64,000 bases of DNA, from assembly GCF_013407185.1 (NCBI RefSeq), contig NZ_CP026995.1, positions 809,578 through 873,577 of the forward strand, in the 5' to 3' direction. This document shows, piece after piece, positions 14,383 through 64,000 of this stretch (position 1 is its first letter; every line of letters starts with the position of its first letter). Below the pieces are notes generated by a model. The model ran no database searches and was not told where the DNA came from. It saw only the letters and a program-made list of their open reading frames with translations. Made by a program: the position numbers and the translations under genes. This DNA comes from Nitrosopumilus ureiphilus (GTDB lineage Archaea; Thermoproteota; Nitrososphaeria; Nitrososphaerales; Nitrosopumilaceae).

Positions 14383-15045
14383 ATGCATAAAAAAGCTGTA
14401 ATTTTAGGCGTCATTGTTGTAGCAATAGTCGCCGGTATTGCAGCATCTATTTCATCATCTACATCAGAAACCGTTAATCTTGATATGGGTAGAACACATG
14501 GTACAATCTCTACTGCTATGGGTTCTGCAATTTTAGGTGATCCTTCTGCTCCAATCACAATTGTTGAATTTGGTGATTATCAATGTCATCAATACTATAA
14601 TTGGTTTCACAATACAAAACCTGCAATAACACGTGATTATATTGAAACTGGAAAAGCAAATTTAGTTTTTGTTGATTTGGCCGTTTTGGGAAATGATTCC
14701 CCCAAAGCAGCTCAGGCTTCATATTGTGCTGAAGATCAAGGGATGTACTGGGATTATCATGGCCTTCTTTACAATTCACAAGAACCAAAAATAGATGGAG
14801 GTTGGGCAAATTCTGAAAGGCTAAAGGCATTTGCATTTACTTTGAGTCTTGATATGGGCCTTTTTGAAAGTTGTCTTGATTCAGGAAAATATTCAAAACG
14901 TGTTCAGTACAACATACAACAAGCAAGAGACAATGGTGTACATGGAACTCCTGGGTTCTTCATTGTAGGTTCTGATGGACAACAACAAATCAGTGGGGCA
15001 CAACCATTTTCTGTTTTTAAACAAATGCTGGATCCTATGATCTAA
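14383..15045 (+). CDS. DsbA-like thioredoxin-fold protein lacking the second active-site Cys
   Basis: A 220-aa membrane-anchored or secreted DsbA-family protein. Residues 5-25 form a signal or anchor helix; the DsbA core begins with ILGDPSAPITIVEFGDYQC, and the cis-Pro loop is VHGTPGFFIVG. The usual CxxC is C68-H-Q-Y71, so the second Cys is missing. Two other Cys (in ASYCAED and ESCLDSG) are conserved-looking. A single reactive Cys suggests an isomerase, a mixed-disulfide carrier or a non-redox role. It is followed directly by a frameshifted membrane protein with a CxC motif, possibly its redox partner. Confidence 0.85.
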   Translation: MHKKAVILGVIVVAIVAGIAASISSSTSETVNLDMGRTHGTISTAMGSAILGDPSAPITIVEFGDYQCHQYYNWFHNTKPAITRDYIETGKANLVFVDLAVLGNDSPKAAQASYCAEDQGMYWDYHGLLYNSQEPKIDGGWANSERLKAFAFTLSLDMGLFESCLDSGKYSKRVQYNIQQARDNGVHGTPGFFIVGSDGQQQISGAQPFSVFKQMLDPMI

Positions 15046-54450: not shown

Positions 54451-54780
54451 TTATCGTCTTTTTGCAGTTTTTCTCTTTGGAGCTGCTTTCTTAACAGTAC
54501 GTTTTGCTTTACTTGCAGTTTTTCTCTTTGGAGCTGCTTTCTTAACAGTACGTTTTGCTTTACTTGCAGTTTTTCTCTTTGGAGCTGCTTTCTTAACAGT
54601 ACGTTTTGCTTTAGCTGCAGTTCTTTTTACTGCTTTCTTAACAGTACGTTTTGCTTTAGCTGCAGTTTTTCTCTTTGGAGCTGCTTTCTTAACAGTACGT
54701 TTTGCTTTAGCTGCAGTTCTTTTTACTGCTTTCTTAACAGTACGTTTTGCTTTACTTGCAGCTTTTCTTTTTGTAGCCAT
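54451..54780 (-). CDS. Histone H1-like Lys/Ala-rich repeat protein
   Basis: A 109-aa protein, almost only Lys, Ala, Arg, Thr, Val and Pro, made of repeats of AKRTVKKA with AAPKRKTA or VKRTAAK inserts (six copies of AKRTVKK). This resembles the tails of eukaryotic H1 and bacterial HC1/AlgP-type DNA-condensing proteins. It should bind DNA by charge. ATG 54780 is used; the ORF could begin six nt upstream. It may act with Alba and SMC in chromosome packing (inference). Confidence 0.85.
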   Translation of the reverse strand: MATKRKAASKAKRTVKKAVKRTAAKAKRTVKKAAPKRKTAAKAKRTVKKAVKRTAAKAKRTVKKAAPKRKTASKAKRTVKKAAPKRKTASKAKRTVKKAAPKRKTAKRR

Positions 54781-54786
54781 TAACAA

Positions 54787-58141: not shown

Positions 58142-59197
58142 ATGAAATATTTTGTGATTTTGTTGTCCTTGATAGGAGTTACAGGGATGGCATTTGCTTC
58201 AGAGTATACAGGAGAAACTCCGCTGTATCTTTTTGATTATCTTGGTGACCTACCAATAGCTTACATTATTGATTATGACATAGACGGCTATCTAAGAAAT
58301 GCTGTAGTGGATTTTGGTTCTAATACAGTAATATTTGAAATAAAAGACAGTGGAGTTTTAACAGTGGAGATTCCAAAAACTCATTTTTTACCCAATGATT
58401 ATTTTCCCACATTATTGATAAACAGAGTAAATGAAGATCCCAAAGAATTTTTGACAAAGGATGAAGAATGTTTCAAAGAATATGAATTTTCAGTCAACCA
58501 AAATACTATGATAGAACTGATCATGGACAAATCTTCTGATGATTTATCCATCATGAATAAGAATATTCTTGCCAATTGTCAGAACAAAATAAACAATGAA
58601 ATTACAAGTACGTTTGATTTTAATATGATTTTTGTAGATGGTCTGGAATATACAATCATTGATGGCAAACAATATCTGAGTAAAACAATCAGATCATCTT
58701 TATCTAATCTCACACATGATGAGACAGTCTTTGAGTTATCTGGAATTAAATTTCATTTCTATGATAAACGTGAAGATAGAATCGTTTATCCTGGAATGGG
58801 AATAATGGGAATGCGTACACCTGTTTTGTTTGAATTTCCAGATGACGTAGCAGAGACGATGTCAATCAAGACTGTTCGAACACCGCAAGATGTAATTGAC
58901 AAACAATTTACCGTCATGGAGACTTTTTCAAGGGAAGGATGGCCAGAGATTGGAATAATTACAGGTCTTACCCCCTCACACCAAATCACAAAACTCTTGG
59001 TATTTGAAAAAAACATCTCCCCCTATGAACAATTGCAATATGGAGTTGAACCATGGCAAGTTCAATGTGATGATGATCTGCATTTGTTGTTAAAACCGCA
59101 AGAATTTGAAACCCCAGTTTGTGTCAGTGAACAAACATCGGATAGACTATCTGATAGGGGATGGAGTGTTGTTGTATATGATTATGAAGATTGGTGA
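58142..59197 (+). CDS. Secreted protein with C-terminal Cys module, paralogue 1
   Basis: A 351-aa secreted protein: signal peptide MKYFVILLSLIGVTGMAFAS, a long beta-rich domain, and an end module SPYEQLQYG ... QCDDDLHLLLKPQEF ... PVCVSEQTSDRLSDRGW. The same module ends the proteins at 60241 and 61080. No transmembrane anchor. Function unknown; likely cell-surface or extracellular. Confidence 0.8.
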   Translation: MKYFVILLSLIGVTGMAFASEYTGETPLYLFDYLGDLPIAYIIDYDIDGYLRNAVVDFGSNTVIFEIKDSGVLTVEIPKTHFLPNDYFPTLLINRVNEDPKEFLTKDEECFKEYEFSVNQNTMIELIMDKSSDDLSIMNKNILANCQNKINNEITSTFDFNMIFVDGLEYTIIDGKQYLSKTIRSSLSNLTHDETVFELSGIKFHFYDKREDRIVYPGMGIMGMRTPVLFEFPDDVAETMSIKTVRTPQDVIDKQFTVMETFSREGWPEIGIITGLTPSHQITKLLVFEKNISPYEQLQYGVEPWQVQCDDDLHLLLKPQEFETPVCVSEQTSDRLSDRGWSVVVYDYEDW

Positions 59198-59205
59198 TAT
59201 AGAAA

Positions 59206-59502
59206 ATGAAGACTAGACTCTTGACAATAATTGGAATCATTGTAATTTTCATTGGAATTACAATGTGGGCGGCATATGATGACATGCCTTATTGTAAAGA
59301 TTGGTGTGATCAAAAAGAATTATTTCGTATTGGTTGTGACAAACTAATACTTGATCATCTTTACAAACATTCAAGTCTATTTGATGAAGAATTTGATGGG
59401 ACATACTTGATTGAAGAAATAGCGTTACCTGCCGAAGTATCTCAAGAATCTTTTGAGAAATGTGTGAATTTTATTTATGAAAAACGAATCTTAATGGGTT
59501 AG
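59206..59502 (+). CDS. Small membrane-anchored Cys protein, tandem copy 1
   Basis: A 98-aa protein with an N-terminal helix (MKTRLLTIIGIIVIFIGITM) and an outer part with CKDWC and further single Cys. It begins a three-gene tandem of small MK-R-type anchored proteins. Function unknown. Confidence 0.65.
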   Translation: MKTRLLTIIGIIVIFIGITMWAAYDDMPYCKDWCDQKELFRIGCDKLILDHLYKHSSLFDEEFDGTYLIEEIALPAEVSQESFEKCVNFIYEKRILMG

Positions 59503-59505
59503 AAA

Positions 59506-59844
59506 ATGAAAGCCAGATACAAAATAATTATTCTGATTTTGATTATTTGGATTCCTGTATCTCTGTTTTTTCCAGATATTTTTCTGATATTTCATCTAGA
59601 TAAATTTGAGACCAATAACAAGTGTGAAAAATTAAATGGAAATTGGGATTGGGTTAACAACATCTGTGAATTGCAGCATAATGGAATATCGGATCCTGAT
59701 TTGATGTGTATTGATGCTGGAGGAACTCCGACATGTGCCACTACTTGTGGCTCATATAATGTGTTTAATCCATGGTCTTTGGTACTGCCACTTGGATGTC
59801 TTGATTATTGTAAATTTGCGTGTGAGTTTGAAAATGAAAAGTAG
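59506..59844 (+). CDS. Small membrane-anchored Cys protein, tandem copy 2
   Basis: A 112-aa protein: N-terminal helix (KIIILILIIWIPVSLFF), then NKCEKLNGNWDWVNNICEL and several Cys near the end (ATTCGSYN, GCLDYCKFACEF). The C-x2-L-x-G-x-W-x5-N-x-C pattern recurs in copy 3. Starts 3 nt after copy 1. Confidence 0.65.
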   Translation: MKARYKIIILILIIWIPVSLFFPDIFLIFHLDKFETNNKCEKLNGNWDWVNNICELQHNGISDPDLMCIDAGGTPTCATTCGSYNVFNPWSLVLPLGCLDYCKFACEFENEK

Positions 59845-60149
59845 ACTTTTGATTATCTTGAGTGTGTTCATAATTTTCTCTCCTCTTACTTGCCACCACA
59901 ATTCCTGATTTATGGATGAATTATTTTTCATATCCTCAAGTTGATGCAGACATAGTTTGTAAAATGAATGGTGGTCAATGGAATGAGAATGGAAATTATT
60001 GTGATGGTATTTTTGATATTTGTGAACATGTTGGAGGTACTAAAATTTCATGGAATGTTACACCCGAATGTGAATCTCAGATAACCGAAGCTGGTGATTT
60101 AACTTGTTTGGATGTAGGTTTGATTCACATTTCATGTATATTCCAATAA
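59834..60149 (+). pseudogene. Small Cys protein, tandem copy 3, frameshifted
   Basis: Begins MKSRLLIILSVFIIFSPL at 59834 (overlapping copy 2) but stops at 59908. Another frame, open from about 59880, reads LLLATTIPDLWMNYF then VCKMNGGQWNENGNYC and continues to 60149. A one-base shift at about 59875-59886 joins them into one anchored Cys-rich protein. Either decay or a base error. Confidence 0.7.
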
Positions 60150-60167
60150 ACCCAGATACAGTAATGG

Positions 60168-60190
60168 TTCAAACCTGTATGGATTTGCTA
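60168..60190 (+). repeat. 24-bp direct repeat, copy A
   Basis: TTCAAACCTGTATGGATTTGCTA (the shared 24 bp also include a preceding G at 60167), identical to 61824-61846. Both follow secreted-protein genes, so it may be a 3' element or a recombination trace. Confidence 0.8.
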
Positions 60191-60196
60191 TGATGG

Positions 60197-60240
60197 ATTA
60201 GAACACTTTATGAATATCTCATTATTGATTTAATCATATT
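60197..60240 (+). promoter_or_regulatory. Repeated upstream element, copy 2
   Basis: ATTAGAACACTTTATGAATA, then TTTAATCATATT before the ATG at 60241. Same spacing (44 nt) as copy 1. Confidence 0.75.
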
Positions 60241-61011
60241 ATGAAACATTTTGTATTTTTGTTTGGGTTTTTGGTTTTAATTGGATTCTCTCTTGTCTTG
60301 GGACCACCTTGGATTGCATATGGACAATACTTGGGAGATAAACTTCCACCCAATACAATGATCATTGATGAAACAGGGGAGTATGTTTTTCCACCATCAT
60401 ATGTTGACTTTTACTATTCAAATCCAAGATTTGAAAAATATTCAGTAATTGCTGAACATTATAGATATGACATACCCTACATGATTTCAAATGGCACTAT
60501 TTCTAAAATGAGCATGGATTGTAACGATGTAGAATTGATTTTAGATATTGAACCTACTGCAAAACAAGGATGGCTAACATTAGCACTGCCACGACAGATA
60601 GTTGATTCACAAATTGGCAGTGACAGAGATGATACCTTCATTGTGTTACTGGATTCAAAAGAAACAAAGCACTCTGATATTGCATCTGAAAAACTACGAC
60701 TTTTAATAATTCCATTCTCAGACAATACTTCTCAAATTAACATAATCGGGGTAAATTATCCAGAACAGATGGGAGAAAATGCTTGCAATGGAAAACATGT
60801 TTCTCCATTTTCATACCTTCTTTCTCCACTAAAACAAATCAAATCAGGAATTACTTTAGACAAAATAAAGTGTAAAGAGGAGTTGGTATTTGCTCAAAAA
60901 AGAGACAGCGGTAAACCAATTTGCATAACACCTGAAACTAAGGATGTACTAGAAAAGAGAAATTGGGTGGAATTACCTCCACCTTACTCACCGTATCCTG
61001 ATCATAATTAG
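60241..61011 (+). CDS. Secreted protein with C-terminal Cys module, paralogue 2
   Basis: A 256-aa protein with signal peptide MKHFVFLFGFLVLIGFSLV, a domain with VIAEHYRYDIPYMISNGT and AKQGWLTLALPRQIV (like segments found in other thaumarchaeal secreted proteins), and the end module SPLKQIKSGITLDKIKCKEE ... KPICITPETKDVLEKRNW. Paralogue of 58142 and 61080 in its last 60 residues. Confidence 0.8.
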   Translation: MKHFVFLFGFLVLIGFSLVLGPPWIAYGQYLGDKLPPNTMIIDETGEYVFPPSYVDFYYSNPRFEKYSVIAEHYRYDIPYMISNGTISKMSMDCNDVELILDIEPTAKQGWLTLALPRQIVDSQIGSDRDDTFIVLLDSKETKHSDIASEKLRLLIIPFSDNTSQINIIGVNYPEQMGENACNGKHVSPFSYLLSPLKQIKSGITLDKIKCKEELVFAQKRDSGKPICITPETKDVLEKRNWVELPPPYSPYPDHN

Positions 61012-61037
61012 CAAACCGTAAAGGATTTGAACTATTC

Positions 61038-61079
61038 ATTAGAACACTTTATGAGTGTCTGTTTTGGTGTTTTGGATAA
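61038..61079 (+). promoter_or_regulatory. Repeated upstream element, copy 3
   Basis: ATTAGAACACTTTATGAGTG, 42 nt before the ATG at 61080. The part next to the ATG differs from the other copies. Confidence 0.7.
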
Positions 61080-61820
61080 ATGAAATATGTTGGAATTCTA
61101 TTTTCTTTTGTCATTATATCTGCACCTTTAGCATTTGCCCAACCACAAAATTTCACTCCAGGACAGATAGAGTTACCTGATAGGTGTTATTCACCAACAC
61201 AGATTGGAACTGCCAGAGTAATAGATCCGGATGCAAATACCGACTCAGAAAAAATAGAAACTGTTCAGATATCTGTTTGGTCTGACAGAGATTTAGAAAA
61301 AAGAACCCCAATGGCAACTGAGACGGGAACAAACACTGGAGTTTTTGAAGCATCCATATTTTTCAGAGTAACTGATGAGGCTGCCAGTCAAAGAATACGG
61401 GCATTTGAAGGAGACACAATATATGCACAATATTATGACTTGACATTGCCGTTTTCTACATCGGATGAATACACCATCATAGATGCTGCAATCATGGGAA
61501 GAGTGCAACCCGATTCATGGTGGGGAGAAAATTGGACTGATATGTTACTGCAAAATAATGTCAAAATTGTTTATGATCCATGTATGGCTGAATTCATGAA
61601 CAAAATAGGAAAAGACGATCCAAGATTTGACTTGATTGACATAGAATATCCTTCTCCATTAAAACAATTCAAATCTGGAATTCTGTTTAACGAAATTGTA
61701 TGCAAAGAAGATCACCATTTGATGCTAAAGCCTACAGAATTTCCAATACCTGTTTGTGTTACACAGTCAACATTTGCTGAATTGATTAAGCGGGGTTGGG
61801 GTATGACCCATAGAATTTAA
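61080..61820 (+). CDS. Secreted S-layer-like-domain protein with C-terminal Cys module, paralogue 3
   Basis: A 246-aa protein: signal peptide (MKYVGILFSFVIISAPLAFAQ), a beta-sandwich domain (ARVIDPDANTDSEKIETVQ ... TETGTNTGVFEASI) of the kind repeated in thaumarchaeal S-layer and surface proteins, and the end module SPLKQFKSGILFNEIVCKED ... PVCVTQSTFAELIKRGW. The beta domain is also present in the next anchored protein at 63016. Confidence 0.82.
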   Translation: MKYVGILFSFVIISAPLAFAQPQNFTPGQIELPDRCYSPTQIGTARVIDPDANTDSEKIETVQISVWSDRDLEKRTPMATETGTNTGVFEASIFFRVTDEAASQRIRAFEGDTIYAQYYDLTLPFSTSDEYTIIDAAIMGRVQPDSWWGENWTDMLLQNNVKIVYDPCMAEFMNKIGKDDPRFDLIDIEYPSPLKQFKSGILFNEIVCKEDHHLMLKPTEFPIPVCVTQSTFAELIKRGWGMTHRI

Positions 61821-63015: not shown

Positions 63016-64000
63016 ATGAAGTATTTTGTAATTTTTCTAGTTTTGATTGGGATGGGAAGTATGGCATTTGCAGAAGAAATCCCAGTAAAAATTCAAACTC
63101 CAAACAATACGGACTTGATAATTACGGGTACTGTGGGGGATTTTCCTCCTCCAAGGGCCCCGCTTGTTACAATAATTATCGAAGACAAACTTGGCAAACC
63201 AATTTTAATTGAATCGACATATCCTGATGGAGTAGGCCATTTTTCATTAGAGATTAAAAGGCTTGGTACGTTATGGGAGGACGTAACAGAATTTTTTGTA
63301 AAGGCAAGAGTTGCAAAAACCACATCGTCTGATGCTGTGATAAAAGAACCAGAATATGGTGCGAAAAATCTAGGCAAAATTATCTGGAAGGAGGCATCAT
63401 ACCGCGGGCTTGAAGATGATGTTGGAACAATTCAGGTAATTGATCCTGACGTTAATCAGTTTAACAATGCAATAGACTTTCTCAGAGTAAAGGCATGGTC
63501 TGACAGTTCACCGCACAAAACTACGATTATACTCACAGAGACAGGAATGAACACCAACATCTTTGAAGGAGATGTAATCTTTTCTAACAAATACCATTTT
63601 TCAAGAGGTGTGCTTTTTGTGAGTAATGGGGATACTGCAACTGCGATGTATGCAGATACCACGCTCCCCGAATATATGGAATCTGATATCTACAAGTTAA
63701 ACGCCACTGCATTAATTGTTGGAAAGCGAGGGCCTCCAATGGAGAGAGCGCCAGCATCAAACTTTATGGTGCTAGATGTAGAAAAAATACCAATAGATGA
63801 TAATTTAATTTCAGTAGATCAACAAATTAGACTAGTGTCTGATCTGGAAAATCATATGGATAGAGTTCAACCGTTTGCATATTTGGTTCAAATACAAAAC
63901 AGTCAAAATCAGGTAGAGTCTTTATCTTGGCTTACTGGAAATCTTACCTCTTTTCAGAAAATAAATTTAGGAACCACTTGGATTCCATTAAAAGAAGGCA
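63016..64000 (+). CDS. Secreted S-layer-like-domain protein, 3' end outside window
   Basis: Open to the window end (at least 328 aa). Signal peptide MKYFVIFLVLIGMGSMAFAE nearly matches that of 58142. An N-terminal carboxypeptidase-like beta domain (IITGTVGDFPPPRAPLVTIIIE) is followed by the same sandwich domain as 61080 (VIDPDVNQFNNAIDF ... TETGMNTNIFEGDVIF). Probably a longer cell-surface protein. A C-terminal anchor or sorting signal would lie beyond the window. Confidence 0.85.
   Translation, partial: MKYFVIFLVLIGMGSMAFAEEIPVKIQTPNNTDLIITGTVGDFPPPRAPLVTIIIEDKLGKPILIESTYPDGVGHFSLEIKRLGTLWEDVTEFFVKARVAKTTSSDAVIKEPEYGAKNLGKIIWKEASYRGLEDDVGTIQVIDPDVNQFNNAIDFLRVKAWSDSSPHKTTIILTETGMNTNIFEGDVIFSNKYHFSRGVLFVSNGDTATAMYADTTLPEYMESDIYKLNATALIVGKRGPPMERAPASNFMVLDVEKIPIDDNLISVDQQIRLVSDLENHMDRVQPFAYLVQIQNSQNQVESLSWLTGNLTSFQKINLGTTWIPLKEG

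Follow-up and report, generated by a model that had tools for sequence, protein, structure and literature searches.

WING-49, a shuffled extracellular domain of Nitrosopumilaceae that may retain exported proteins at the cell surface

The 64,000-nucleotide stretch of the Nitrosopumilus ureiphilus genome analyzed here (positions 809,578 to 873,577 of NZ_CP026995.1; below, the window) encodes three exported proteins, 58142, 60241, and 61080 (named after their first positions in the window), which end in a common module of about 48 residues. The family is already catalogued and named, since NCBIfam entry NF058652 ("WING-49") describes the same module and supplies its name and a model, with no function shown. 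Among described systems, PEFG-CTERM/archaeosortase (TIGR04296) is found on the same kinds of exported domains in the same cells, and one partner domain occurs with either tail. PEFG-CTERM is, however, a C-terminal motif with a helix, whereas WING-49 is a folded domain that can take any position and has no such helix, and the two were never found on the same protein. Non-covalent bacterial wall-binding modules such as SLH and LysM are likewise small and portable and attach exported proteins of unrelated kinds to the envelope from either end of the chain; WING-49 differs from them in being mostly single-copy, and neither Pfam family appeared in scans of 33 of the 34 WING-49 hosts of the genome (all but W1014403). 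The archaea that carry WING-49 are not known to contain peptidoglycan. SlaB-type S-layer (surface layer) anchors belong to the same phylum and attach to the envelope, as is proposed for WING-49, but excerpts of PMC11153153 describe SlaB homologues, including a minor one noted in Nitrosopumilus maritimus, as having a C-terminal membrane helix, which WING-49 hosts lack (for exceptions, see below). Excerpts of PMC6593220 report PEFG-CTERM proteins from Nitrosopumilus proteomes and compare them with PEP-CTERM, while those of PMC6790972 and PMC7848895 describe expanded secreted serpins in sponge-associated relatives and mention no common module. Neither the name "WING-49" nor the string SPACVKP was found in the literature searched, and the position independence, anchor exclusivity, and role discussed below were not found in it either, this literature omitting most subscription papers.

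The first-pass annotation of the window had claimed that the three proteins share a C-terminal module with two fixed cysteines, attached to differing secreted domains. NF058652 matched 58142, 60241, and 61080 with E values of 5e-14, 4e-17, and 2e-16 and with 52.1, 62.2, and 60.1 bits (curated cut-off, 22), which places all three in WING-49. Aligned with one another, the three are identical in 11 columns (S, P, Q, G, C, P, C, T, L, R, and W). A profile built from 56 other copies, i.e., from a set of 59 without the three window copies, recovered these three at 2e-17 to 3e-22, while the best of 3000 shuffled sequences reached 1.5e-4. Smith-Waterman scores between the module tails (77, 119, and 94) were well above those of shuffled sequences (means near 22; maxima 52, 43, and 40, respectively). 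The regions preceding the module scored 31 to 38 against shuffle means of 30 to 33 and, being no higher than shuffles, are unrelated by this test. The common module and the differing domains before it were thus borne out. The proposed sequence pattern fitted in general, except that its "CV" is "CI" in 60241 and that its middle L and K columns are not invariant.

The genome (2.17 Mb, one contig) contained 34 WING-49 matches, 33 of them above the curated cut-off, and 72 further loci were obtained by scanning named genome records with a sequence pattern (the record loci). A hydrophobic export segment preceded all 34 copies, in agreement with the secretion claimed for the hosts, and was present in 61 of the 72 record loci, with eight lacking a detectable segment and three cut off; exports were called by a simple hydrophobicity rule, and one of the 34 host starts was corrected. 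The three window proteins all start with this segment and finish with WING-49, so the annotated C-terminal location is correct for them but not for the family: 13 copies in the genome are C-terminal, seven directly follow the export segment, and 14 are internal, the respective numbers for the record loci being 16, 7, and 49. Because most copies are N-terminal or internal, the reading of WING-49 as a C-terminal sorting signal is rejected. Comparison of the hosts after masking of the module showed most of them to be mutually unrelated, and some partner domains recurred in another order around it; the domain of 60241, for instance, lies before the module in the host of copy 870403 and after it in that of 1503280. 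Pfam partners above cut-off in the genome's hosts were two serpins, MG2, DLH (dienelactone hydrolase), cupredoxin, and BNR_2, with a matrixin-like domain as a weak match, and those in 60 hosts of the named records were NHL and BNR propellers, cupredoxin, MG2, and a weak Hint-like domain. The partners named for the genome's hosts are unrelated effectors that would gain from surface retention. The Hint-like (self-processing) domain is C-terminal to WING-49 in the Nitrosotalea-type hosts L034, L096, and L153 (E 6e-5 to 0.005, under the Pfam cut-off). Two frames of genome G126 (C1:396881-397147 and 887082-887411) carry two partial, weak WING-49 matches each and are possibly tandem or decayed.

Four lines of evidence speak for anchoring. 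A later membrane helix was missing from 33 of the 34 hosts in the genome, and a comparison within the same stretches, approximate owing to simple open reading frame calling, found one in 1 of 27 hosts versus 24 of the 61 non-host proteins that have an export segment. Among 148 WING-49 and 127 PEFG-CTERM matches in 11 genomes, none shared a reading frame, while 4.3 to 8.7 overlaps would be expected by chance if 400 to 200 exported proteins per genome are assumed; there is no mechanical bar to an internal WING-49 preceding a C-terminal PEFG-CTERM tail. None of the three window proteins ends in a hydrophobic helix, which together with a C-terminal PEFG motif defines the PEFG-CTERM signal, so that they do not belong to this class. 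A whole-genome search placed the domain that precedes the 60241 module at seven sites, each with exactly one tail and none bare: WING-49 at two, PEFG-CTERM at three, a C-terminal membrane helix at one, and a tandem WWADG repeat at one. Similarly, homologous cupredoxin-type regions were found with WING-49 (541865) as well as with PEFG-CTERM, in a comparison set whose counts are biased by the deliberate inclusion of PEFG loci. Serpins of the family were surveyed at 30 of 59 matches, of which L184 was set aside for a wrong longest frame; WING-49 was present in 11 of the 29 usable loci, namely, in 11 of 20 with an N-terminal hydrophobic segment versus none of nine without it, although the hydrophobicity rule may have missed the start of some of the nine.

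In six genomes, both putative anchor types are adjacent: a WING-49 protein (≈316-348 residues) is divergent to a PEFG-CTERM protein (≈200 residues) about 0.75 to 0.82 kb away (G000 C1:1614597 and 1615353; likewise in G013, G045, G150, G156, and G162). Another portable repeat of about 38 residues (IPSWIKNNAGWWADGQIDD...), often in tandem, has 31 matches in the genome (e.g., L203, G000 C1:1873283-1873543); it never occurred in a WING-49 frame, and no Pfam family was detected in the one host scanned.

Scans with profiles found the module well beyond the three proteins, so that the refuting condition named in the first-pass annotation, a profile without other hits, did not hold. Of 300 genomes from the phylum, 41 were positive with the curated model, all of them in the window's own family, Nitrosopumilaceae (41 of 44 genomes; elsewhere, 0 of 256). 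A looser profile applied to 400 genomes of the order gave 189 positives, 180 in Nitrosopumilaceae and nine outside, the latter mostly with single copies and two of them only at E 0.008; the outside copies may stem from transfer or from contamination. The 72 record loci came nearly all from records labelled Nitrosopumilus, Nitrosarchaeum, Nitrosotalea, Nitrosotenuis, or Thaumarchaeota, the exceptions being one Nitrososphaeraceae record and two bacterial ones. Since these two carry Nitrosopumilaceae-type sequence, both look like binning contamination: the genes on the "Alphaproteobacteria" contig L100 resemble those of F420 biosynthesis, and on L159, the "Brocadia" contig, the neighboring gene shares 97 to 99% identity with a gene of a Nitrosopumilaceae genome (one of 61 genomes). 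A viral spread of the module was considered as well and rejected, as 12 pattern stretches on viral contigs included none encoding a relative. WING-49 is a genuine, lineage-restricted, and shuffled extracellular domain that occurs mainly in a single archaeal family. Larger genomes tend to have more copies of it (Spearman 0.58 across 44 genomes, the top counts being known as at least 22), and its genes are clustered, with 31 successive pairs less than 5 kb apart versus 6.2 expected in 11 genomes.

The module structure, predicted by AlphaFold2 for the copy in 60241 from 59 sequences, was a confident helix-strand-strand-helix fold (predicted local distance difference test score, 90.8). Q8, C20, and C37 were invariant in 59 copies, and P5, G12, and L46 were nearly so, as were the final motif's R and W in 60 record hosts; both cysteines were also present in all 72 record loci, so that they are indeed fixed, as annotated. 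Judging from this conservation, the pair likely forms a disulfide, which is plausible because the window encodes a DsbA-like protein (cf. Table 1), a candidate for disulfide formation in exported proteins. A sequence search of the PDB found no related solved structure (best E 0.25), the 59 copies matched Pfam families at chance level only, and Foldseek returned no fold match at E≤0.001 (best E 2.4). With regard to a GINS B-domain-like fold, GINS subunits appeared among weak VIA structural matches (best Z 3.1, 42 aligned residues, root-mean-square deviation 4.7), which are too weak to use. The mean charge was +1.9 for modules and -4.6 per 100 residues for the rest of their hosts, and the module was above the rest in 89 of 95 cases.

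These findings led us to propose that WING-49 is a portable, disulfide-stabilized surface-retention domain of Nitrosopumilaceae that stands in for a membrane anchor, a reading that we regard as somewhat more probable than all its alternatives together. Its basis is observed: the module recurs irrespective of position, on proteins with export signals and no other anchors, never together with PEFG-CTERM, and one partner domain carries alternative tails. The disulfide, the binding, and the nature of the receptor are steps that we infer. WING-49 would fold autonomously into the α-β-β-α unit, probably closed by the disulfide, and would bind a fixed component of the envelope, most probably the S-layer or the glycans on it, so that the exported host is kept at the surface. 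It would substitute for a PEFG-CTERM tail or a C-terminal helix where a protein has, apart from its export signal, no membrane segment, and would be shuffled among partners at any position. We placed the receptor at the S-layer lattice, its glycans, or lipid head groups because the envelope offers a helix-free exported protein little else. Excerpts of PMC11153153 describe the N. maritimus S-layer as strongly negative and built of immunoglobulin-like domains, the last of which, the authors speculate, ties it to the cell. Anchoring, which was among the functions proposed in the first-pass annotation, is the most likely of them, surface binding being deduced from the architecture.

Several observations weigh against this proposal. 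One host combines WING-49 with a C-terminal helix, although its copy is degenerate (29 bits, without the final W), and a later hydrophobic stretch occurs in 4 of the 72 record loci. Three of the 44 Nitrosopumilaceae genomes are without WING-49, which is thus not essential. In serpins, a cleavable signal as opposed to a signal anchor was not a significant predictor of the module (10 of 11 vs 6 of 10, the latter including L184; p 0.15). The charge fits on average only, since the 58142 copy is at -7 and several others are at or under 0, and a purely electrostatic binding is weakened by such acidic copies. Finally, the S-layer is favored as the receptor solely because the envelope offers little else.

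Other explanations account for part of the same evidence. If WING-49 were a docking domain for secreted partners, whether a scaffold or further hosts, and built extracellular complexes instead of ties to the envelope, the clustering of host genes would be understandable, and GINS, whose subunits are among the weak structural matches (Z 3.1 and lower), uses such a domain for protein contacts. Docking alone, however, leaves both the exclusivity with membrane anchors and the exchange of tails on one domain unexplained, and no scaffold built of repeated modules turned up, two matches in one frame being seen in G126 alone, twice and with weak scores; we find this explanation doubtful. The varied effector partners, together with a copy number that grows with genome size in the manner of an environment-facing repertoire, would also suit a recognition domain steering enzymes and inhibitors to external targets such as particles, organic matter, or surface glycans of a host or prey. 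This is unlikely in our estimation, as recognition would have no need to exclude membrane anchors, yet no overlaps were found, and as recognition surfaces usually diverge, while this motif is strongly conserved whatever the partner (Q and both cysteines in 59 copies).

A small disulfide-type fold found at any chain position could also serve folding or linkage, with no partner to bind, and be retained for its stabilizing effect on exported proteins. The invariant Q and the near-invariant P, G, L, R, and W are unexpected for a passive linker, as is its absence from anchored proteins, which makes this possibility quite improbable. Least credible is a signal for sorting or secretion that sits at the C-terminus and has a dedicated processing enzyme. 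The three window proteins and 13 of the 34 copies have the module where such a signal would be, but 21 of the 34 copies and 56 of the 72 record loci have it N-terminally or internally, the N-terminal copies contradict this explanation outright, and none of the three window proteins has a tail helix after the module.

Table 1. Coordinates of WING-49 proteins, modules, and neighboring genes in the window
Feature	Window positions	Strand	Description
Protein 58142	58142..59197	+	Exported, 351 residues; signal peptide, domain without Pfam match (E≤1), then C-terminal WING-49
WING-49 copy 1	59021..59167	+	Residues 294-342 of 58142; NCBIfam match; net charge -7 (exception)
Protein 60241	60241..61011	+	Exported, 256 residues; first domain recurs elsewhere in genome with varied tails, WING-49 follows
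WING-49 copy 2	60826..60969	+	Residues 196-243 of 60241; structure predicted
Protein 61080	61080..61820	+	Exported, 246 residues; S-layer-like domain, then WING-49
WING-49 copy 3	61656..61802	+	Residues 193-241 of 61080
Exported neighbor	63016..64000 (genome 872593-873669, ends just past window)	+	No WING-49; S-layer-like domain in common with 61080
DsbA-like thioredoxin	14383..15042	+	N-terminal membrane segment; Thioredoxin_4 6e-22, DSBA 1e-10; context only

The domain that precedes the module in 61080 resembles part of the anammox S-layer protein Kustd1514 at an E value of 4e-8, a match far under the full-length cut-off of the model. From 58142 onward, seven WING-49 genes lie within about 17 kb (genome 866-886 kb); a serpin and an MG2-domain protein belong to this cluster, the MG2 gene starting about 100 bases past the end of the window. 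Upstream, on the - strand (54451-54786), the window encodes a Lys/Ala-rich repeat protein (KRTVKKAAPKRKTAAKA...) that is like histone H1 tails.

Ammonia-oxidizing archaea are very abundant, and little is known of how their exported enzymes stay on cells lacking a wall polymer outside the S-layer. A module exchanged with membrane anchors marks dozens of proteins per genome, most of them without annotation, as probable surface proteins. Tentatively, WING-49 might represent a third, non-membrane anchoring route, a disulfide-closed tag that would dock protease inhibitors, hydrolases, and copper proteins on the ammonium-collecting S-layer. It also makes the question of the receptor approachable, since a single 50-residue domain in purified form and S-layer sheets isolated from cells would suffice.

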